The notes below the pieces were generated by a model. It saw only the letters and a program-made list of their open reading frames with translations, did not search any database and was not told the origin of the DNA. From the IMG/VR virus record IMGVR_UViG_3300025168_000537, positions 1 through 27,081 of that record: 27,081 nt of DNA; one strand, written 5' to 3'. The stretch is from a virus. Shown piece after piece: positions 11,954-24,837 of the stretch. Positions within the stretch are counted from its first letter, which is position 1. Every line of letters starts with the position of its first letter. The position numbers and the translations under genes were made by a program.

Positions 11954-12616
11954 CTACATTCCCATTAACATTTCAAATACATCGTCGATTGCTGGATGTC
12001 TATGATTGTCTAATAGTATTCTCTTATATACATATTCAGAACTTGCTAATTTAGATATATCTACTATTGCTGAATAGTTTTTATCTTTTAAATCTATCTG
12101 TTGATTATCACCACAGAATATCATTGTAGATCCTTTGCCTAATCTGCCTAGTGCCATTCTTAATTGCGATCGTGTTAAGTTTTGGAATTCATCTATAATA
12201 ACAACTGAGTTTTCAAATGTTCTACCTCTAAAGTGTGCTAGTGATACTAGCTCTATTGTCTCTGTCTCTTCCATCTTTTCGAGTATCATAGGTTTATTGT
12301 AAACTTTTCTCATATTGCTTCTTATAGGTACCAACCAAGGCTCCATCTTTTCTTTTTCAGATCCTGGTAAAAATCCATTATCTTCTGTAGAAACAGTTGG
12401 TCGTGTGATAATTATTTTATTTATCATTCTCTTAAAAAACATATCAAGTGCTACCTGACAAGCCAATAGCGTCTTACCGCTTCCTGCTTTGCCTACAATA
12501 AAATTATAAGGGTGATGCAACATAGCTTGCTTTGCTGCTTTCTGCTCTACTGACAACGTTATTGAGAATTTAACATTACCTTTTGGTGGTTTCTTTTCTA
12601 TATTTTGTCGTGCCAT
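11954..12616 (-). CDS. phoH: PhoH-like P-loop ATPase
   Basis: A 220-residue PhoH-domain protein. Walker A is GKAGSGKT at residues 42-49, Walker B is VVIIDE at 138-143, and LPGSEKEKM (83-91) and FCGDNQQIDL are typical PhoH segments. The domain fills nearly the whole chain, as in phage PhoH proteins, which lack the KH/PIN extensions of bacterial PhoH2/PhoL. Marine phages commonly carry phoH; phosphate regulation is often assumed, but RNA metabolism is equally plausible. The GGAG at the ATG, a promoter-like box and a terminator upstream make it the first gene of a new unit inserted between capsid and neck genes, a place where T4 has no phoH. Confidence 0.92.
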   Translation of the reverse strand: MARQNIEKKPPKGNVKFSITLSVEQKAAKQAMLHHPYNFIVGKAGSGKTLLACQVALDMFFKRMINKIIITRPTVSTEDNGFLPGSEKEKMEPWLVPIRSNMRKVYNKPMILEKMEETETIELVSLAHFRGRTFENSVVIIDEFQNLTRSQLRMALGRLGKGSTMIFCGDNQQIDLKDKNYSAIVDISKLASSEYVYKRILLDNHRHPAIDDVFEMLMGM

Positions 12617-12715: not shown

Positions 12716-14290
12716 TTATGAAGGTAAACCACCTAAATTAGACCAGTTAGCATCTGTAACACCAATCAATCCGTAGAAGTCGTTTCTTACAACTTTCTTC
12801 GCATATCTTGTCATCACACCTTTTCTTGGCGTAAAGTTAGTTGGATCATAAACAAGTGGAGTCATGATTAATGGGATATATGGAGCAAATACTGCACCAG
12901 TTTCAAGGAATTGGTTTCCTCTGAAGCCCATTAAAATTTCTTTACCTGTCCAATATGGATTTTTGTAAATCGTAAATCTGTTCGACATTGAACCGATTGC
13001 AGATACACCCATTGCAAAGCTTGAAGCAGTTCCATCAGTGTTTGCAGTATATCCAGCGATTGACTCTAGATAAGTTGCGATCTGTGGGGAACATACAGCG
13101 AAGTTTGCACCACCTCTCATTGTTGATTGGTGAATTGCATTAGATACAGCATTCATTTTAATACCTAATTGAGCGAATGCATCGCCGAAAGTTTCACCAG
13201 CTTGTGGAGCTACTGCTGCGAAATCAGTTGTGAATCCACCAGCACGAGCTGCAGCTGATAACATACTTAGGATTTCTAAATCGATTTCCATAGTGATGTA
13301 TTCAGATAACATAGAAGTTAGTTCAGCTTCTGCGTCAATTGAATGATATGCATTCAAATCTTGAGCAAATTCTGGTGACCATTTAACTTTAAGTTTTCTA
13401 GTCTTAGCAACTAAAGCCTCATTAGTTAAGTTAACTTCTAATTCAGGAATTTCTAAATCTGTTCCAGTGTTTCCACTGTTACCTAATTCAGCAATATCTC
13501 TGTCTTCGAAATCACCTCTTAAGTTTGCAGTTGATGTGTTCTTGTAGAAGTGTAAAGTTCCACCAGTACCTGGACAAGATGCAACTTGAGATCCTGTGAT
13601 AAAATTGAAAGTTACTGAAGATGCACCATCATAAGCAGATGCAGTCATTACATGTGAACCTGATTCAATGTAAAAAGCACCGTGTAAATCATAGTCTACA
13701 TCAGCTGGGTCAGTAGCTGTCATACCTACAAGGTTTAATACCCCTGTTGATAAATCAGCATCTACAACATTCACTACTTTCTTAGCTAATGAATAGCCAG
13801 AACCAGCGCCTGTTCCTGAACCTGTTGAAGCACCATCAGAATACAAACCATCAGATAAATTTGCTTTACCTTTGTTTGCTGTATTTCCGAATAAGCTATC
13901 TTGTTCTACGTGACGTCCTTTACCTAGTGTACCACCAGTGTGACCGCCGTATTTAAAGTCTAACCAAAAAACTAAACCAGATGGTAAGTTCATAGGTTGT
14001 ACTGAGACAAATTCCTTTGCAGATAATTCGCCAAAGATTCTTCTAACTAATGGAAGTGCAACACCGTTCCAATCTTCTTTGCCAGTACCAGTTGTAGTAT
14101 TGTTTGACTCCGAGATAAGTTGTTTTGCTTGGTTTTCTAAAAGAATTGCAGTGTTATGCTTATCATATTCTGCATTGATTCCTTCAAGTAGACCAGTTTT
14201 TTCCCACTTAGTTACAAGACCTTTTGTTTCGTTTCTCTGAGCCTTAAATTTGGCTTGAGAATCTTGTAATAAATCGTTAATTTGTGACAT
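12716..14290 (-). CDS. gp23: Major capsid protein (T4 gp23-like)
   Basis: The 524 residues compare with 521 for T4 gp23. Diagnostic segments are ALPLVRRIFGELSAKEFVSVQPMNLPSGLVFWLDFKYGG (about 78-116), KTRKLKVKWSPEFAQDLNAYHSIDAEAELTSMLSEYI (HK97-fold core), and the C-terminal NPYWTGKEILMGFRG with PYIPLIMTPLVYDPTNFTPRKGVMTRYAKK. T4 gp23 is cut after E65 by the prohead protease at an (L/I)xE site; here I59-S60-E61 lies at the equivalent place, before the conserved region, so a ~61-residue propeptide is likely. GGAG precedes the ATG at 14290. It follows the scaffold and is closed by a strong terminator. Confidence 0.96.
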   Translation of the reverse strand: MSQINDLLQDSQAKFKAQRNETKGLVTKWEKTGLLEGINAEYDKHNTAILLENQAKQLISESNNTTTGTGKEDWNGVALPLVRRIFGELSAKEFVSVQPMNLPSGLVFWLDFKYGGHTGGTLGKGRHVEQDSLFGNTANKGKANLSDGLYSDGASTGSGTGAGSGYSLAKKVVNVVDADLSTGVLNLVGMTATDPADVDYDLHGAFYIESGSHVMTASAYDGASSVTFNFITGSQVASCPGTGGTLHFYKNTSTANLRGDFEDRDIAELGNSGNTGTDLEIPELEVNLTNEALVAKTRKLKVKWSPEFAQDLNAYHSIDAEAELTSMLSEYITMEIDLEILSMLSAAARAGGFTTDFAAVAPQAGETFGDAFAQLGIKMNAVSNAIHQSTMRGGANFAVCSPQIATYLESIAGYTANTDGTASSFAMGVSAIGSMSNRFTIYKNPYWTGKEILMGFRGNQFLETGAVFAPYIPLIMTPLVYDPTNFTPRKGVMTRYAKKVVRNDFYGLIGVTDANWSNLGGLPS

Positions 14291-14320: not shown

Positions 14321-15277
14321 TTATTTTAATCCTGCTAACCTTTGCATTCTACCTGCAAAAGTGTTCGATTCTACAATAACATTCTTTGATGGTTTTGTAG
14401 AACCTTGTGCTCTAGATGCAAAGTTTTCATTTACTTTTTTCTTAGGCGTGTATGCAGTTAAAGATTCTGCTAAAGTAGAATATACTAATTTAACCTCTCT
14501 TACTGAATTTGCTCTATCGAAAGTTTCGATTACTTTCATCTTTTGCGATTCGTTCAAATTGTTAGAACGGAATAATTTATTTGAGAAAAGTAGTTTAGAG
14601 TTCAACAAGTTAACTTCATTGATTTTGCTTTTTAAGTATTTTATAACTTTGTAAGCTTCTTCAAGTTCTTCGTCGTTTTCTTTAACTTCTTCCTCATCTT
14701 CACCTTCAGTGACTTCTTCTTCGTCTTCTTCTTGTAAAGATTTAATTATTTCATCCAAGTCCAATTCCTCGTCTTCTTCAACCTTGTCTTCTTCAGTTTC
14801 AGTTACAGTTTCTTCGTCCTCATCAGTTTCGTCAAGCTTTTCGTCTTCAGTTTCAGTAACAGGTTCTTCTTCCTCTGTTTCTTCCATTTCGTCTTCGCCT
14901 TCCAATTCTTTAATGATTTCTTCTAATTCTGCATCATCTTCTGCTTCGTACATAGTTTCTTCTACTTCTTCACCTTCTTCGTATGATTCTTCAGCTGGTG
15001 CATCATCACCTGTTTCTTCTGTTTCTTCATCCGCAGAAGCTACTTCTGTAGAGTCATCAGCGATTGCCGCTTCGTCATCTTCGATTGTAGTGTCAGTAGT
15101 TTCTAATTCTTCTTCTTCTGACATTTCATCGTCCATTTCTTCAGCGATTTTCTGTGATAACATTGATTGAAGTTTTGGAGTAAATGCTTCTTCTAAAGCT
15201 AGTTTTGCGTTTGCGATTGCAGTTGAACGAACTGCCTTTGCGTCAGCAATAGCTTCTTTTAATAAGTCTTTTGACAT
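14321..15277 (-). CDS. gp22: Prohead core scaffold protein (T4 gp22-like), extremely acidic
   Basis: The 318-residue product sits directly before the capsid gene, the place of T4 gp22. Residues 1-48 are helical; residues 49-210 are a low-complexity stretch of Glu, Asp and Thr; residues 211-290 are a helical domain (EEAYKVIKYLKSKINEVNLLN, then LLFSNKLFRSNNLNESQKMKVIETFDRA) that recalls marine-phage gp22; the end is AGRMQRLAGLK. By my count about 78 of 318 residues are Glu, mostly GAA codons. A scaffold of this kind fills the prohead and is degraded by the protease, and several LxE sites are present. AGGAG precedes the ATG. The leader is ~160 bases long, structured, and begins just after a tRNA-Glu gene. 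Confidence 0.88.
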   Translation of the reverse strand: MSKDLLKEAIADAKAVRSTAIANAKLALEEAFTPKLQSMLSQKIAEEMDDEMSEEEELETTDTTIEDDEAAIADDSTEVASADEETEETGDDAPAEESYEEGEEVEETMYEAEDDAELEEIIKELEGEDEMEETEEEEPVTETEDEKLDETDEDEETVTETEEDKVEEDEELDLDEIIKSLQEEDEEEVTEGEDEEEVKENDEELEEAYKVIKYLKSKINEVNLLNSKLLFSNKLFRSNNLNESQKMKVIETFDRANSVREVKLVYSTLAESLTAYTPKKKVNENFASRAQGSTKPSKNVIVESNTFAGRMQRLAGLK

Positions 15278-15414: not shown

Positions 15415-15443
15415 CGAAAAACATGAAAATTTTGATTTTTTTG

Positions 15444-15515
15444 TAGCCCGACGGAGAATCGAACTCCGATTACCAGGATGAAAACCTGGCGTCCTAGCCA
15501 TTAGACGACCGGGCC
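15444..15515 (-). tRNA. tRNA-Glu (anticodon UUC)
   Basis: The 72 bases fold as a complete cloverleaf. The acceptor is GGCCCGG/TCGGGCT (G1-U72 and G7-U66 wobbles), the D stem GTC/GAC, the anticodon arm CCAGG-TTTTCAT-CCTGG giving UUC, and the T arm CGGAG-TTCGATT-CTCCG. The discriminator base is A and CCA is not encoded (ACA follows). It is embedded in the late cluster between the bS21-like gene and the scaffold gene. The anticodon arm is identical to what I recall for many Bacteroidota tRNA-Glu genes, but that comparison is from memory. Confidence 0.95.
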
Positions 15516-15518
15516 AGT

Positions 15519-15579
15519 ATTATAAGGGACATTAAGCTACCACATAAGTTTAAGCTACCTATTCTCAGTCCCTTATAAT
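15519..15579 (-). repeat. 12-bp perfect inverted repeat enclosing a 10-bp direct repeat
   Basis: ATTATAAGGGAC and GTCCCTTATAAT are perfect 12-base arms at the two ends. The 37-base interior holds two copies of GGTAGCTTAA (coding strand; + strand positions 15532-15541 and 15550-15559). The element fills the gap between the bS21-like stop and the 5' end of tRNA-Glu. With no T tract it is not a standard terminator; an RNA-processing hairpin that frees the tRNA is plausible. Confidence 0.7.
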
Positions 15580-15581
15580 TA

Positions 15582-15953
15582 CTATTGAGCCTTGCCGTCT
15601 ACAATACAAGTCCACATATGATTCTTCATAGCTTCCTTTTGCTTTTTAGTTTCCCATGAAAGCTTTCGTATTGCTTCTTTCTTCTGTACTCTTCTAACCT
15701 GAGCTGGCTTGATAAATTCTTTTCTAGATCTAAACTCTTCCATTATATTTGCATCTTTCATTTGACGCTTCATATATTTCAGTGCTCGCTCTAATGTTCC
15801 CGGACTTGCATCTGGAACTCTAACTGCATTTGGGCAGCCTTCTACATAAAACTCATATCTGCCGAGTTTCTTTCTAAATGGTCTTTTCTTACCATCTTTG
15901 TTTTGATAGCTGTTGCTATTCGATTTGTGCTTTTGATTTCTGTTATAAGCCAT
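15582..15953 (-). CDS. rpsU-like: Ribosomal protein bS21-like protein
   Basis: I chose the ATG at 15953 (MAYNRNQKHK); the longer frame to 16013 begins inside the upstream terminator. The 123-residue product has a basic, Asn/Lys-rich N-terminal ~30 residues, then a bS21-like part: PGTLERALKYMKRQMKDANIMEEFRSRKEFIKPAQVRRVQKKEAIRK (about 51-97), matching the E..ALRR.KR....G...E.R.R..F.KP pattern of bS21. A further ~25 residues follow. Host bS21 is usually 55-71 residues, so both ends are extended. bS21 binds the 30S platform near the anti-Shine-Dalgarno; phage-encoded bS21 is known from marine and freshwater phages. Unlike most neighbours this start has no Shine-Dalgarno, only an A-rich leader. 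Confidence 0.82.
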   Translation of the reverse strand: MAYNRNQKHKSNSNSYQNKDGKKRPFRKKLGRYEFYVEGCPNAVRVPDASPGTLERALKYMKRQMKDANIMEEFRSRKEFIKPAQVRRVQKKEAIRKLSWETKKQKEAMKNHMWTCIVDGKAQ

Positions 15954-15999
15954 AAATTTTTTGTTTTTAGTTAAACCTTTATTAGTATCTAATATAACT

Positions 16000-16037
16000 A
16001 AAAAAACCGACATATAAAAATATATGGCGGTCTTTTT
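16000..16037 (-). terminator. Rho-independent terminator before the bS21-like gene
   Basis: On the coding strand AAAGACCG-C-CATATA pairs with TATATG-T-CGGTTTTTTT around a TTTT loop: a long stem with one mismatch, ending in seven T. It lies 18 bases after the stop at 16055. It overlaps the first codons of the longer bS21 frame, which argues for the internal ATG at 15953. Confidence 0.85.
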
Positions 16038-16054: not shown

Positions 16055-17011
16055 TTATTTCTTTACGATATCTACGTACTCGCCTTGATTAACTATCTTA
16101 GCTTTTTGTAACATATCTTGATAATAATCTTTGATTTCTTTCATGTAGTTTGCAACATAATCACGTCTCCAGCTATCAAGATCTCTATCTTTATCTATAG
16201 CTTTAGCTTTAATAGCTGCTTGTTCTTTTTCTTCTGCTGCAGCTTCCTGTTTGTATCTTACGTAAGAATCAACCATTCTAGCATATCTATCAGTTACAGT
16301 TTTATATGTATCCCATGATGTTTGGTATTTACCTTTTTTAAGCATCTGAGTATTTTTATCTATTACTTGCTGTACTACCTTAGCAGCTTGAGCCATAAGT
16401 TTTTCCATGCCTTCTGCACCTGTTGCTGCAACTTTCATAGTTAAAGCTTTTTTGTATCTCGCGTGGTTTTTGTTAGCAACGTCTCTAGCTTGCATAAGTG
16501 CCGTAGCACCTTTTTGAGCGTCTGCTCTAGCAGCTTGTAATTCTTTTGATGAAGGTATATCTGATAAAGCAATTGATAATACTCTGTCAGCTACTTCAGA
16601 ATATCTTTTGTAATTGTCAACTGATTTCTGTTGGTTACCTATCATATCAGGTTTGTGTGAATATCTTTGCTTTGGCCAGTACATAGATTTTTTACCTATA
16701 GTAATTCCTATAATACCTTTATTAAGCTGTCCGTATTCTGAATCTCTTTGGAATGGGTTTACTTTTTTGTCGTTCAATATAAAGATATTCATATGATCAT
16801 TGGAAGGGTTAGCTTTCGAACTTACATTTTTATCTTGTACATCTGACCAAGCGAATCCTCTAGTCTTTGCAGTCGAACCAAAGAACCTTTTGTCAGTACT
16901 ATCCATAACTTGGAACAATGCAGTCAATGCTTTAGATTCAAACTTTTCTGTTATTAGAGACTTGATTATTTCTTCTCTAATTAACTTTCGTAATTTTATT
17001 TCTGATTTCAT
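16055..17011 (-). CDS. Helical prohead-region protein, possible internal head protein
   Basis: I recognise no family in this 318-residue product. The N terminus (KLRKLIREEIIKSLITE, residues 6-22) is an amphipathic helix containing two (L/I)xE sites, I11-R-E13 and I20-T-E22. Residues 27-125 are mixed, with aromatic and Gly residues (KRFFGSTAKTRGFAW; GIIGITIGKKSMYWPKQRY). Residues 130-318 are long charged helices rich in Ala, Lys and Gln, predicted coiled coil. It lies among prohead genes: the protease is two genes upstream, five bases separate it from the preceding gene, and a terminator follows. T4 internal head proteins carry short N-terminal targeting peptides cut by gp21 at (L/I)xE, so this could be a packaged, injected protein; that is inference. 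Confidence 0.7.
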   Translation of the reverse strand: MKSEIKLRKLIREEIIKSLITEKFESKALTALFQVMDSTDKRFFGSTAKTRGFAWSDVQDKNVSSKANPSNDHMNIFILNDKKVNPFQRDSEYGQLNKGIIGITIGKKSMYWPKQRYSHKPDMIGNQQKSVDNYKRYSEVADRVLSIALSDIPSSKELQAARADAQKGATALMQARDVANKNHARYKKALTMKVAATGAEGMEKLMAQAAKVVQQVIDKNTQMLKKGKYQTSWDTYKTVTDRYARMVDSYVRYKQEAAAEEKEQAAIKAKAIDKDRDLDSWRRDYVANYMKEIKDYYQDMLQKAKIVNQGEYVDIVKK

Positions 17012-20075: not shown

Positions 20076-21935
20076 TTAAATATCATCTTTTAATATATTT
20101 TCCTCGTTTAATAGAGTTGATTTGTTCTTACTTGCTTTGTTCATCTCATCAAAGATATTAACCGCCATTCTTCTTCGTTCTTTACCTTCGAATTTTCTTA
20201 AATTTTTATTGTTCTTAAGCTTCGAATCTCGCCTTCTTTCTTCTTTGGCTAGTGGATCTCTACCTCTTGCTGATTTTTGAGTACCTGGCTTAGGGCCTTC
20301 CTTAGGTCTTCCCTGTCCAGGTTTGTTTTCAGATACGCCTTCATCGTCTGCCCATAAATCTACATCCGGCATATCAGGTTCGAACCCTCCTTCTTCTCCA
20401 GCTGGTGGTTGAGAACCTTGCTGTAGAGCCCAGTCAGTTGCAACTGATATCTTAGATGTTATAGGATTATTTCCTGCTTCAAGTTCGTTGTGTAGGAATA
20501 ATCGTTTCTTGTCCTGCTGTACGCCTCGTTGTTGTTCTTCCATTTCGTCAACTGACATGTGCAATATATTTTTGTATGCCCATTCTTCTGATACCATACC
20601 ACCAGATTTTATAGAATCTATAAGCTGGAGTTTCTGAGACCAAAGTTCGATTTTCTCTTGTTCGTGTATTGTCGATGAGCTTGTCAAGGATAAATTAAAG
20701 TCTACCAAATCTTCTTCTGTAAAGCCTTGTGAGTACAAGTGTACCATAGCCATCTTTGTCAACTCTGATATAAAGATTCTTTGTATTCGCTCTATAGTTC
20801 TTGCAAATCTTACATCTTGCGCAGCGAGTGTTGCTTTTCCTTCTACACCTTCTTCATATCCTAAAAATGCTTTTGGTATTTTAAGTGCTGCAAACATTCT
20901 GTGCTTTAAGTATTCTACATCCTCAATTCCACCAAATTCCATACCTGACATTGTATCAATTTCAGTACCTGTGTTACCACCTCTTACAGGGAGATAGACA
21001 TCCTCCATCATATTGGACATATTAAACCTTAGGTTGTATTGACCAGTTTTAGGATCTAGATATGGAGTTTTTTTCATCTGACTTATAACTCTCTGCATAT
21101 ATGTGTCTACTTCTGCTGGAGGTATATTACCTATGTCAATTTTATATACTCTTTTTTCTGGTGCACGCATAATTCTATGAATCAACATAGCATCTTCCAT
21201 AAGAGTTAATTGCTTATATGTTTTTCTTGCTGGTTCTATCATTGATTTACCATACGGTAAGAAATTCATATCGTTTAAAAGTCTAAAGTGAGCTACTTCA
21301 TAATTACCATATTTTGTATTTGTTCCACCAGCAGCCTGTTGGCCAGCACCGCCTCCCATAGAAGGATCATGATTGAACTCTACCAATTCAGGGTTTGCAG
21401 GATCAATACCTTCTTCTCTGTACATTTCGTATGGTGATAGTGCTGTACAATTTGTAACACCTACTGTTTCTGTAATGTCCATTTTTAAATATAGATCTCC
21501 ATACTTGCACATGTTTCTTACCCAAGGCCATGCATTGAATTCTATGTTAAGTACATCATAAAATAAATTGTTTAATACCTTCTGAACTCTTTCGTTTTCA
21601 GAGTTAATTGTTAGTACATTACCATATTCATTTTTAAGAGTCGACTCATCTGCATAGATATCTAACGCTGAAGATATAATTGAATCTTCATCCATTAGTT
21701 CGTAGTCAGTATATAGTGATAGTCTTAGTGTGTGAAAATTAGCTTGCTGATTATATCCATAGTTGTCACTTTGATATATTCTATTAAATCTATCTACAAG
21801 TCTATTTGTTGATAGTTTCTGATTAGACTGGATCTTTGATAGATCTGCGATCTTCAATCCCTTGTCTGTCCTTCTAACTATTGTTCCTGTTGAAAATAGT
21901 GTTTTTAATCTTCCGAAAAATGTTTTATCTGCCAT
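20076..21935 (-). CDS. gp20: Portal protein (T4 gp20-like)
   Basis: The 619-residue product is longer than T4 gp20 (524), mainly through a charged C-terminal tail. Portal landmarks are SLYTDYELMDEDSIISSALDIYADES (about 69-94), LPYGKSMIEPARKTYKQLTLMEDAMLIHRIMRAPEKRVYKIDIGNIPP, EYLKHRMFAALKIPKAFLGYEEGVEGKATLAAQDVRFARTIERIQ, and a tail GRPKEGPKPGTQKSARGRDPL seen in marine relatives. It forms the dodecameric DNA channel, nucleates the prohead and docks the terminase. The ATG has AAGGAG and follows the terminase stop by 14 bases. Confidence 0.95.
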   Translation of the reverse strand: MADKTFFGRLKTLFSTGTIVRRTDKGLKIADLSKIQSNQKLSTNRLVDRFNRIYQSDNYGYNQQANFHTLRLSLYTDYELMDEDSIISSALDIYADESTLKNEYGNVLTINSENERVQKVLNNLFYDVLNIEFNAWPWVRNMCKYGDLYLKMDITETVGVTNCTALSPYEMYREEGIDPANPELVEFNHDPSMGGGAGQQAAGGTNTKYGNYEVAHFRLLNDMNFLPYGKSMIEPARKTYKQLTLMEDAMLIHRIMRAPEKRVYKIDIGNIPPAEVDTYMQRVISQMKKTPYLDPKTGQYNLRFNMSNMMEDVYLPVRGGNTGTEIDTMSGMEFGGIEDVEYLKHRMFAALKIPKAFLGYEEGVEGKATLAAQDVRFARTIERIQRIFISELTKMAMVHLYSQGFTEEDLVDFNLSLTSSSTIHEQEKIELWSQKLQLIDSIKSGGMVSEEWAYKNILHMSVDEMEEQQRGVQQDKKRLFLHNELEAGNNPITSKISVATDWALQQGSQPPAGEEGGFEPDMPDVDLWADDEGVSENKPGQGRPKEGPKPGTQKSARGRDPLAKEERRRDSKLKNNKNLRKFEGKERRRMAVNIFDEMNKASKNKSTLLNEENILKDDI

Positions 21936-21949
21936 TTTGTTTTAGCTCC

Positions 21950-23530
21950 TTATATCAACCAGGTTAAGTCTTCTTCGTCGTTTCCAATCTTTTGTTTCCA
22001 AGGATTTACACCTTGAACACCATCATTGCCAGTATAGGCTCCTCGAGTGTTAGTTATACTATTGATAGCGCTTTTATTCATTGCCAATCCTTCATTGTGC
22101 AATCTCAAAGCATTATCTCTAACATACATTGCGATAGAAAACGCCATTGTTAAATCGTCATTGTACCCTCTTTGAGCTTCAGCTTTGTGTCCATTCCATA
22201 TAAAAACGAACAGCTCATCGATTAACCTTTTTGATCTAACGATACACGCCTTCTCCCTAAAATAAATATCAAGTTTCGATATCAAAAGGGGTCGAGTTCT
22301 TGAAGACGTTGTAAATCCTGGTGTCATATTTTCTCTGTTTTTTAAATCATAACCTTTGCTTAATTGTGTTGCTGCATCATGAACTCCTTCATGTTTGTAT
22401 GTATAATAGAGATTTCTGTATCCTCTATCAATAGCAGGTTGTAGTGCAGCCCAACCTATATTTGCATTTTCTACTACTAGTAAAGCTTCATTGTATTCTA
22501 CGGATATATTTACTAGCATGTTTCCAAAATCTTTTGTAGGTATTTGAGATTTGAATTCTGCAACTTGTGTCATTGTTTCTATTTCGATAACATGAAAAGC
22601 AGAATAATCACTTGCATCTCCTCTGGCAACATCGGCAACTACCATATAAGATTTTGTATAATCTGGATAGTCCCAAATCCACATCTCATCATCACGGCCT
22701 CTTTTTTCTATAGGCTCTTTACACATATTGTCTTGATACCATGTAAGAAGCTCACCAGAAACAACCGAATTACCAGAAGTTATAAAGTCACAATCACATT
22801 CTTGTGCTGCCATTTTTTCACCTAGCAATTCTGTTTGTAAATCTCTCCACTCTTGGTCTCTTTCAGGATGCTCTGTCCAATGTAGCTTGATAGGATTAAA
22901 TCTTCCATCACCTCTTTCTGCTTCTTGCCAAGTCTTATGAAATAAGTTACCAGTCCCATTAGGTGTTGATAGCAAAACTGCTCTACCACCAGTTGCTAAT
23001 GTTTGCTGAGCTGAAGTCCATATCTCATCTATCTTATCTATAAATGCAGCTTCGTCAATTACAAGTAATGACAGCGCTTCTGATCTAGCAGCATCAGGTG
23101 AAGATGACACGGCTTTTACTTGAGAACCATTTTTAAGTCTAAGAGAAAGTCTGTTATCTTCTTCAGATCCAACACGGAGCCAAGAAGGTAGCATCTCATG
23201 CATAACTCTAATCTTTGTAATAAGATTTTTTGCTGTGTCTTGCTTGATTGCAATTACTAAAACGTTATAGTCTTCATTGAACACCATACTCCATACTGTA
23301 AGACCTGCTGTTAAAGTTGAAATACCCATCTGTCTAGATTTAAGTATTATATTAAATCTTTCTGTTGTTAACTCTGTAAGTGCTTCTTCTTGGAATGGGA
23401 ATAGATCGAACTTGATCTTCCCTTTCATTGGATGCTGTATGTAGCAATACTTTCGCATAAAGTATATAGGGTCTTGCGAACACCTAACATACTCTTTAAC
23501 TAACGCTTGTTTTATTGTTTCTTTTGCCAT
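21950..23530 (-). CDS. gp17: Terminase large subunit (T4 gp17-like)
   Basis: The 526-residue packaging motor has an ATPase domain with Walker A SRQMGIST (65-72), Walker B LLVIDE (155-160) and the coupling motif LLSTPNGTGN (186-195). The RNase H-fold nuclease domain has acidic residues at D300 (VADVARGD), E354 (LVVENANIG) and D458/D459 (YNDDLTMA). T4 gp17 is 610 residues; this one lacks some N-terminal sequence. No ribosome site is evident at the ATG, but a promoter-like box lies in the 34-base gap upstream. I find no small terminase gene in the window. Confidence 0.97.
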   Translation of the reverse strand: MAKETIKQALVKEYVRCSQDPIYFMRKYCYIQHPMKGKIKFDLFPFQEEALTELTTERFNIILKSRQMGISTLTAGLTVWSMVFNEDYNVLVIAIKQDTAKNLITKIRVMHEMLPSWLRVGSEEDNRLSLRLKNGSQVKAVSSSPDAARSEALSLLVIDEAAFIDKIDEIWTSAQQTLATGGRAVLLSTPNGTGNLFHKTWQEAERGDGRFNPIKLHWTEHPERDQEWRDLQTELLGEKMAAQECDCDFITSGNSVVSGELLTWYQDNMCKEPIEKRGRDDEMWIWDYPDYTKSYMVVADVARGDASDYSAFHVIEIETMTQVAEFKSQIPTKDFGNMLVNISVEYNEALLVVENANIGWAALQPAIDRGYRNLYYTYKHEGVHDAATQLSKGYDLKNRENMTPGFTTSSRTRPLLISKLDIYFREKACIVRSKRLIDELFVFIWNGHKAEAQRGYNDDLTMAFSIAMYVRDNALRLHNEGLAMNKSAINSITNTRGAYTGNDGVQGVNPWKQKIGNDEEDLTWLI

Positions 23531-23960: not shown

Positions 23961-24253
23961 TATTTCTTACTCCTGTATTTATTTTTAAATTCGGAAGTAG
24001 TTTTCTTTGCAGATTTTGTTGATTTTATCTTAGACTTTGTATTTTTTAGTTTTACATCTGTCTTCTTTATCTTTTTTACTATTACTTCTTCTTCCTTCTT
24101 CAACTTTTTAGTTTTTGCCTTAACAGCTTTTACCTTAGTCTTGTTTTCTTTTACATCCGCCTTGAATTGTTTTTTATTTCCTTTTGCTGACATAGCAAAA
24201 ATAGCGCCTATCACAGCACCTATTCCTAATAATACTCTCCATAATGTTTTCAT
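23960..24253 (-). CDS. Small Lys-rich membrane-anchored protein
   Basis: The 97-residue product has an N-terminal hydrophobic segment with a small-residue pattern (LLGIGAVIGAIFAMSAKG, about 8-25) followed by ~70 residues dominated by Lys, without proline, probably one long helix or coiled coil. AAGGAG precedes the ATG, which overlaps the previous stop (ATGA). It is translationally coupled to the lipoprotein gene that follows. N-terminal anchor plus helical ectodomain before an overlapping lipoprotein gene recalls an i-spanin/o-spanin pair, but the extreme Lys content could equally mean nucleic-acid or polyanion binding. Function unknown. Confidence 0.68.
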   Translation of the reverse strand: MKTLWRVLLGIGAVIGAIFAMSAKGNKKQFKADVKENKTKVKAVKAKTKKLKKEEEVIVKKIKKTDVKLKNTKSKIKSTKSAKKTTSEFKNKYRSKK

Positions 24254-24837
24254 TGATTGTTCTCCTTTTTTTTGTTAACCATTTCTTCTATATTGTTTGA
24301 CTCTGTTTCCATAAACTCTTCAAACTTTTGCTTCATATCTTGCTTTGCGATATCAGTCATCTCACTCCAATCTTCTATCTCTCCAGCTTCTGTTATGAAA
24401 TGCTTTGAATTTATATTTCTTAAATAATCTTCAAACTCTATTTTCTTTTCTGCTTTCCAAGATTTAAAATTCTTTTTTACGTTTTCTACAAGCCAATTGT
24501 CATATGTACCTGAATGTCTCATTTCTATCTCTGATCGACTCTGGCAGTGCAAGCAGTGCTTATATCGCATATACATAAATTTGTGTTGAGACTTGTTCAT
24601 AGCTCCGCCACATGAAGGGCAGCTAATAGGTATTCTTGCTGCAGCTCTTGCTTTATCAAGCTTTCGAACATTTTGTTTGATACCGTTTTTTATTGTCCAA
24701 GTTCGGCCGTTTTCTTCCCACACATCGCCTTCTTGTTTTTTGGACTTGTATTTTTTATAACCTGTTTGAACTCGAGATTTAGAACCGTAATCGCCTGTTA
24801 CGAGATTTCTCATTCTTTGTATTTTGTTTTTGTCCAT
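24250..24837 (-). CDS. Zinc-ribbon hypothetical protein
   Basis: The 195-residue product has EGDVWEENGRTWTIKNGIKQNVRKLDKAR (36-64), a pattern I recall from hypothetical proteins of marine T4-like phages. A four-cysteine zinc ribbon follows (C73-x2-C76 and C95-x2-C98), then an acidic helical tail (IEDWSEMTDIAKQDMKQKFEEFMETE). No ribosome site is visible at the ATG at 24837, in contrast to the genes after it. It lies two genes before the lipoprotein and overlaps the next start (ATGA). It might be a packaging or late-transcription accessory, but nothing in the sequence fixes the role. Confidence 0.75.
   Translation of the reverse strand: MDKNKIQRMRNLVTGDYGSKSRVQTGYKKYKSKKQEGDVWEENGRTWTIKNGIKQNVRKLDKARAAARIPISCPSCGGAMNKSQHKFMYMRYKHCLHCQSRSEIEMRHSGTYDNWLVENVKKNFKSWKAEKKIEFEDYLRNINSKHFITEAGEIEDWSEMTDIAKQDMKQKFEEFMETESNNIEEMVNKKKENNQ

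Follow-up and report, generated by a model that had tools for sequence, protein, structure and literature searches.

An SD-Less bS21 Gene With a Replication-Class Promoter Among SD-Led Late Genes of a Marine T4-Like Phage and Its Possible Role in Translation Initiation

In a marine T4-like phage the gene for ribosomal protein bS21 has an A-rich leader without a Shine-Dalgarno (SD) sequence and a promoter-like element of the replication class, while the late structural genes around it mostly carry strong SDs, and within the phage family the presence of bS21 goes with SD use. The window, the whole stretch of 27,081 nucleotides that was analysed (IMG/VR record IMGVR_UViG_3300025168_000537), is a fragment of this phage with its main genes all on the minus strand, and a near-identical second copy of the contig (L002, 31.6 kb) encodes a 100% identical bS21. 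These features may reflect two tiers of translation initiation linked by a bS21 exchange that would free the anti-SD of the host ribosome for the SD-led late mRNAs, a reading that is plausible but unproven and is ranked slightly below adaptation of the phage to a host that reads SDs in the ordinary way. The redirection of ribosomes by phage bS21 is, as a general idea, already published (PMC6375957; PMC9723584; PMC9976891).

The bS21 Gene and Its Leader

The start codon of bS21 is the ATG at 15953; a longer open reading frame from 16013 was rejected, its start falling within the terminator hairpin (Table 1) and relatives giving it no support. AlphaFold2 predicts helices at residues 53-67, 70-77 and 83-111, with both the N- and C-terminal extensions modelled at low confidence. 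The N-terminal MAYNRNQKH and W114 are invariant among nine aligned relatives. By an ungapped count from the KP motif the position of Tyr54 of Flavobacterium johnsoniae is taken by R96, bearing out the first-pass annotation, which had placed it at I95/R96 and called it non-aromatic. Across relatives the position is mostly R, A, S, G, K, L, E or T, with Y in G012, L099 and G013.

Table 1. Coordinates of bS21 and surrounding features in the window (promoter, leader and hairpins as predicted from the sequence)
Feature	Position	Strand	Remarks
bS21 gene	15582..15953	-	123 aa; PF01165 45.1 bits, cut-off 27
bS21 protein parts			residues 1-50, basic extension at the N-terminus; 53-111, S21 core of three helices; C-terminal tail conserved and containing W
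SD-less 5' leader of bS21 (putative)	15954..15984	-	~30 nt, A-rich, unstructured; transcription start placed from the -10 box
GTTTAACTAA	15971-15980	-	~20-23 nt before bS21 ATG
Replication-class (early/middle) promoter-like element	15991..16014	-	TATGTC 16014-16009, N12, TATATT 15996-15991
Intrinsic terminator hairpin and U tract	16001..16031	-	-12.3 kcal/mol, z -7.0; separates bS21 from upstream gene
tRNA-Glu (UUC)	15443..15515	-	ARAGORN; Rfam RF00005
Hairpin in bS21/tRNA-Glu interval	15517..15584	-	perfect 11-bp inverted repeat TTATAAGGGAC/GTCCCTTATAA; two GGTAGCTTAA copies in loop; -20.5 kcal/mol, z -3.0
Major capsid protein (MCP)	12716..14290	-	late gene with SD, -6.6 kcal/mol
Scaffold gene, downstream of bS21	14321..15277	-	SD-led, -7.3 kcal/mol
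Portal protein	20076..21935	-	SD-led, -7.4 kcal/mol; 48-50% identity to Mel-JY01 and Flavobacterium phage immuto
Large terminase (terL)	21950..23530	-	SD-less, -1.1 kcal/mol; used for family tree
Gene 24250-24837	24250..24837	-	SD-less, +0.8 kcal/mol; TATGTC-N12-TATATT ends 6 nt before ATG, near leaderless

Pairing of the bS21 start region with the anti-SD gave +2.0 kcal/mol, that is no SD, and no strong extended SD was seen, against an SD at 18 of 24 curated window starts (-5 kcal/mol or lower). When ORFs were called without bias, 64% of those in the window reached -6 kcal/mol and 0% of mock sites did so; both thresholds, -5 and -6, were applied with results in the same direction. Since terL, the tape-measure gene (-2.9 kcal/mol) and gene 24250-24837 also lack an SD, a lone SD-less bS21 would be weak evidence. 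The absence exceeds chance because in relatives, with gene starts taken as the first ATG of each ORF on metagenomic fragments, only 3 of 53 bS21 leaders among the matches listed carry an SD where 25 were expected from neighbouring genes, these counts being not independent as the sequences are related. The leaders of relatives are 58% A and 5% G, and the SD-bearing exceptions (Mel-JY01, L072 and L109) all lack a promoter of their own before bS21. The contrast drawn in the first-pass annotation between an A-rich, SD-less bS21 leader and SD-led late genes is as such confirmed in the window and conserved in its relatives. Within the leader lies GTTTAACTAA, a possible leader element of bS21 judging from its presence in clades A, C and D (L018, L042, L046 and others) almost exclusively before bS21 in the sequences scanned.

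The gene sits between a gene at 16055-17011 and the scaffold gene, on the same strand as its neighbours and adjoined by tRNA-Glu, with the order terminase-portal-protease-bS21-scaffold-capsid being common to the family. The window matches the T4-like myovirus group of immuto and Mel-JY01, with homologous terL (54-58%), portal (Table 1), MCP, sheath and tube. The hairpin between bS21 and tRNA-Glu matched no Rfam family and was dropped as a known RNA, and no hairpin of this type was seen 3' of bS21 in the relatives whose downstream sequence was compared. PhoH (11954-12616) shares 91-93% identity with its counterparts in relatives of the clade D type (L046, L038, L042) and ~45% with those of clade C, pointing to a history unlike that of the surrounding genes through mosaic exchange.

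Promoter Class and SD Use

The TATGTC box of the bS21 promoter lies in the 3' arm of the terminator, a layout shared by clade A relatives. The motif TATGTC-N12-TATATT was found in six upstream regions in G010 and six in G003 against 0.0 expected, the G010 genes behind it being primase, polA, UvdE, 5'-3' exonuclease, PolIII PHP protein, ThyX, PD-(D/E)XK exonuclease and PEP mutase. As this promoter type drives DNA-replication genes that are mostly SD-less or leaderless, bS21 is probably an early/middle gene within a late cluster. In keeping with this an early-type promoter precedes 41 of 53 bS21 genes among the matches listed, taking in other clades the form TTG-N20-TATATT, which resembles the early promoters of immuto. 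Gene 24250-24837 is a second SD-less window gene with the promoter class of bS21. Several replication genes in G010, G003 and G001 start 5-7 nt past the -10 box, so that their mRNAs are probably leaderless.

The T4 middle promoters consist of a MotA box at -30 and a -10 element. The promoter-like element here is comparable in placing a box ~12 nt ahead of a -10 region in front of replication genes, but the box is TATGTC. A T4-type late promoter, TATAAATA, was not enriched in the window and was dropped as a candidate before bS21.

Promoter class is the best predictor of SD use. First genes behind TATGTC-type promoters have an SD in 4 of 24 cases versus 71% of 42 late-type genes (p=6e-6, near-identical genomes being counted repeatedly), and with clade A counted once the figures are 3 of 14 early versus 24 of 39 late (p=0.014), while Mel-JY01 has 2 of 24 early versus 8 of 11 late first genes with an SD (p=3e-4). 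Each class was defined by one strict motif, and promoter counts made with regular expressions are exploratory because the patterns were refined after the sequences had been viewed. The early-versus-late difference in SD use holds for these promoter-led first genes but does not extend to the internal genes of early units, ~50% of which carry an SD, about as often as late genes, ruling out a strict confinement of SDs to late genes. Among the T4 genes with early or middle promoters that were checked most bear an SD, and as such SD-less promoter-led early/middle genes are not a habit of T4.

bS21 and SD Use Among Related Phages

Among the matches listed, 47% of 1205 genes in 55 bS21-bearing loci have an SD (mock 10%), compared with 6% of 733 genes (mock 16%) in 40 loci where the site is covered but bS21 is absent. 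On the family tree there are, again among the matches listed, three independent changes in bS21, with SD use following in all three (p=0.25), a number too small for a test. Since the bS21-bearing phages form a grade, the clade of the Flavobacterium phage is likely to have lost bS21 and SDs together, as far as a tree without an inferred root can show. No excess of SDs was found in immuto, crAss001, G014 or G016, each of which either lacks bS21 or yielded none.

This association does not extend to phages with a Bacteroidia-like bS21. Of 80 viral loci with a Bacteroidia-like bS21, the 64 that were scored have an SD at 5.4% of 736 genes (mock 17.3%) and at none of their 64 bS21 genes, and 19 of the 64 encode Arg54, showing that neither bS21 nor the loss of Tyr54 suffices for SD use. 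Conversely G012 and L099 use SDs with Tyr54 in place, such that Tyr54 does not exclude SD use; G013, also bS21-bearing with Tyr54, has no enrichment of SDs. The Tyr54 residue, which the first-pass annotation had taken as a marker of SD mode, was discarded as a predictor, and bS21 presence predicts SD use in the window's family and fails as a general predictor for Bacteroidia-like phage bS21.

The open-access literature searched yielded no report that ties a phage bS21 to the presence of SDs on the other genes of that phage. Freshwater Bacteroidetes phages, in which bS21 was proposed to bias translation toward phage mRNAs, resemble the window in having the terL, portal, protease and MCP genes close to bS21, but their bS21 proteins are all aromatic at position 54, encoded on the opposite strand and expressed with late genes (Chen et al., 2022; PMC9723584), whereas the window has R96, the same strand, a replication-class promoter and SD-led neighbours; the 64 Bacteroidia-like loci scored here, which may or may not include these genomes, show no SD use. 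The SD-based autoregulation of rpsU in F. johnsoniae is comparable in that ribosomal SD use is set by the status of bS21, the arrangement being the reverse of that in the window with an SD-bearing gene in an SD-less genome rather than an SD-less gene in an SD-rich one (McNutt et al., 2023; PMC9976891). The Pelagibacter phage HTVC008M also encodes a bS21, which enters E. coli ribosomes, but this is host-like and of 67 aa (Mizuno et al., 2019; PMC6375957); it was not detected with the window bS21 as tblastn query against phage records. Mel-JY01 (PP395634) belongs to the same T4-like family, with bS21 in the same place and SD use strongest in structural genes; its bS21, of 75 aa, differs in having Lys at position 54, a weak SD (-5.5 kcal/mol) and no promoter of its own.

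Host Assignment and Competing Explanations

A promoter position weight matrix trained on immuto and tested on other phages, which was cleaner than regular expressions, found immuto-like promoters in phages having both bS21 and SDs, with 13 in G011 (0 expected), 8 in clade B (0), 6 in G012 (0) and 5 in Mel-JY01 (0.2). Bacteroidota-type promoters occur in such relatives in clades B and C, G012 and Mel-JY01. Sites found with the matrix were few in G010 and G003 and absent from T4, HTVC008M, Ma-LMM01, P-SSM2 and RM378, and the early promoters of the window's own clade are not of the canonical Bacteroidota TTG-N20 form. These matches may reflect common descent of the promoters. The TTG-TATATT spacing alone was not decisive for the host, since the canonical sigma-70 promoter shares this geometry, and the matrix was used instead. 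Binning of terminase relatives into MAGs was weak evidence because the taxa were mixed and phage contigs with and without SD use occur together in MAG NAT55. This MAG (Flavobacteriales; L065, L067, L159, L169) contains several contigs of the family and two phage-like bS21 genes. Mel-JY01 (L032, L188, L290, L291) was deposited as a Microcystis phage, a statement that was traced to no paper, and its ~17-20 Bacteroidota-type promoters (17 strict ones against 0.3 expected), Fib_succ_major domain and SD use (p=1e-12) make this label doubtful.

The leading explanation, though itself short of probable, is that the window's clade infects an SD-reading bacterium, possibly a member of the Bacteroidota phylum from an SD-using lineage other than Bacteroidia, such that its late SDs are ordinary, with sister phages having lost both SDs and bS21 on moving to Bacteroidia. 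The phage bS21 would then be a host-like replacement part with a leader that is SD-less only through the shortness of early-unit leaders. A host combining an open anti-SD with Arg54 exists in principle, as two genomes of the phylum with Arg54 use SDs, G047 at 57% of genes (mock 14%) and G161 at 41% (mock 12%), and Arg54 sequences are numerous among the top bS21 hits from the phylum; most Arg54 lineages sampled in the phylum are, however, SD-less. The spread of SDs throughout the phage genomes, early units included, is in keeping with an SD-reading host, as are the co-occurrence of Bacteroidia-like phage bS21 with SD-less genes and the presence of the known Flavobacterium phage and most Bacteroidota-binned contigs in the clade lacking bS21. 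Against it stand the Flavobacterium-phage-like promoters of relatives with bS21 and SDs, and the SD-less state of promoter-led early/middle genes, which departs from that of T4 with its SD-reading host.

The alternative of a bS21-driven change in initiation, the switch proposed in the first-pass annotation, we hold as a tentative but serious possibility. Promoter-proximal early/middle genes including bS21, with short A-rich or leaderless SD-less leaders, would be read by unmodified host ribosomes, while the late structural genes are headed by strong SDs. The phage bS21 would then take the place of its host counterpart on the 30S platform. Being without the Bacteroidia-type C-terminal half including Tyr54, it would cease to contribute to retention of the 16S 3' tail, and ribosomes with a released anti-SD would as a result favour SD-led late mRNAs. 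In F. johnsoniae, the Y54A change or loss of the C-terminus of bS21 does increase SD-led translation (PMC9976891). An anti-SD-sequestering host is the premise of the scheme, and it, like the early/middle timing, we infer. Of the original proposal, the conserved SD-less bS21 amid SD-led late genes stands, as does an expression order in which an early/middle-type promoter would supply bS21 as required, with the co-variation of bS21 and SD use in the family and the Bacteroidota-type promoters of relatives also in its favour; it is weakened by the failure of Tyr54 as a marker, by the SD-less Bacteroidia-like bS21 loci and by the SDs inside early units. The narrower claim that the family re-opens SD recognition specifically in anti-SD-sequestering Bacteroidota, its own bS21 from an SD-less early-type mRNA converting SD-blind into SD-reading ribosomes for late genes, seems rather unlikely.

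Escape from host feedback is improbable. Many Bacteroidota autoregulate their own rpsU via an extended SD, and a phage bS21 that dropped its SD would avoid this feedback and ensure that ribosomes stay complete, in which case the SDs of other genes would be a separate matter. The SD-less state of bS21 in 64 of 64 Bacteroidia-like loci and, among the matches listed, 50 of 53 in the window's family agrees with this, as do the strongly SD-led host rpsU genes sampled, but the Bacteroidia-like phages are SD-less at every gene, so that bS21 is not singled out, and the co-variation of bS21 with SDs in the window's family is left unexplained. Strong SDs precede host rpsU in Flavobacteriaceae and Chitinophagaceae MAGs (L154, L158; GAGGAGGTG, AAAGGAGGT), in agreement with published Flavobacteriales. 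That bS21 acts off the ribosome or by binding RNA, as suggested by its long, basic arm at the N-terminus and its conserved tail at the C-terminus with their invariant residues outside the S21 core, is the most doubtful reading given a core far over the PF01165 cut-off and a HTVC008M homologue that enters ribosomes (PMC6375957).

Implications for the Phage Family

The bS21-driven change in initiation, if true, would mean that a virus rewrites the initiation rule of its host's ribosomes by swapping one protein, and would directly show the purpose of bS21 genes in phages, which has been in question since 2019. Under adaptation to an SD-reading host too the family is a natural experiment, in which the association of bS21 with SD use can be tested because bS21, SD use and promoter type differ among close relatives.
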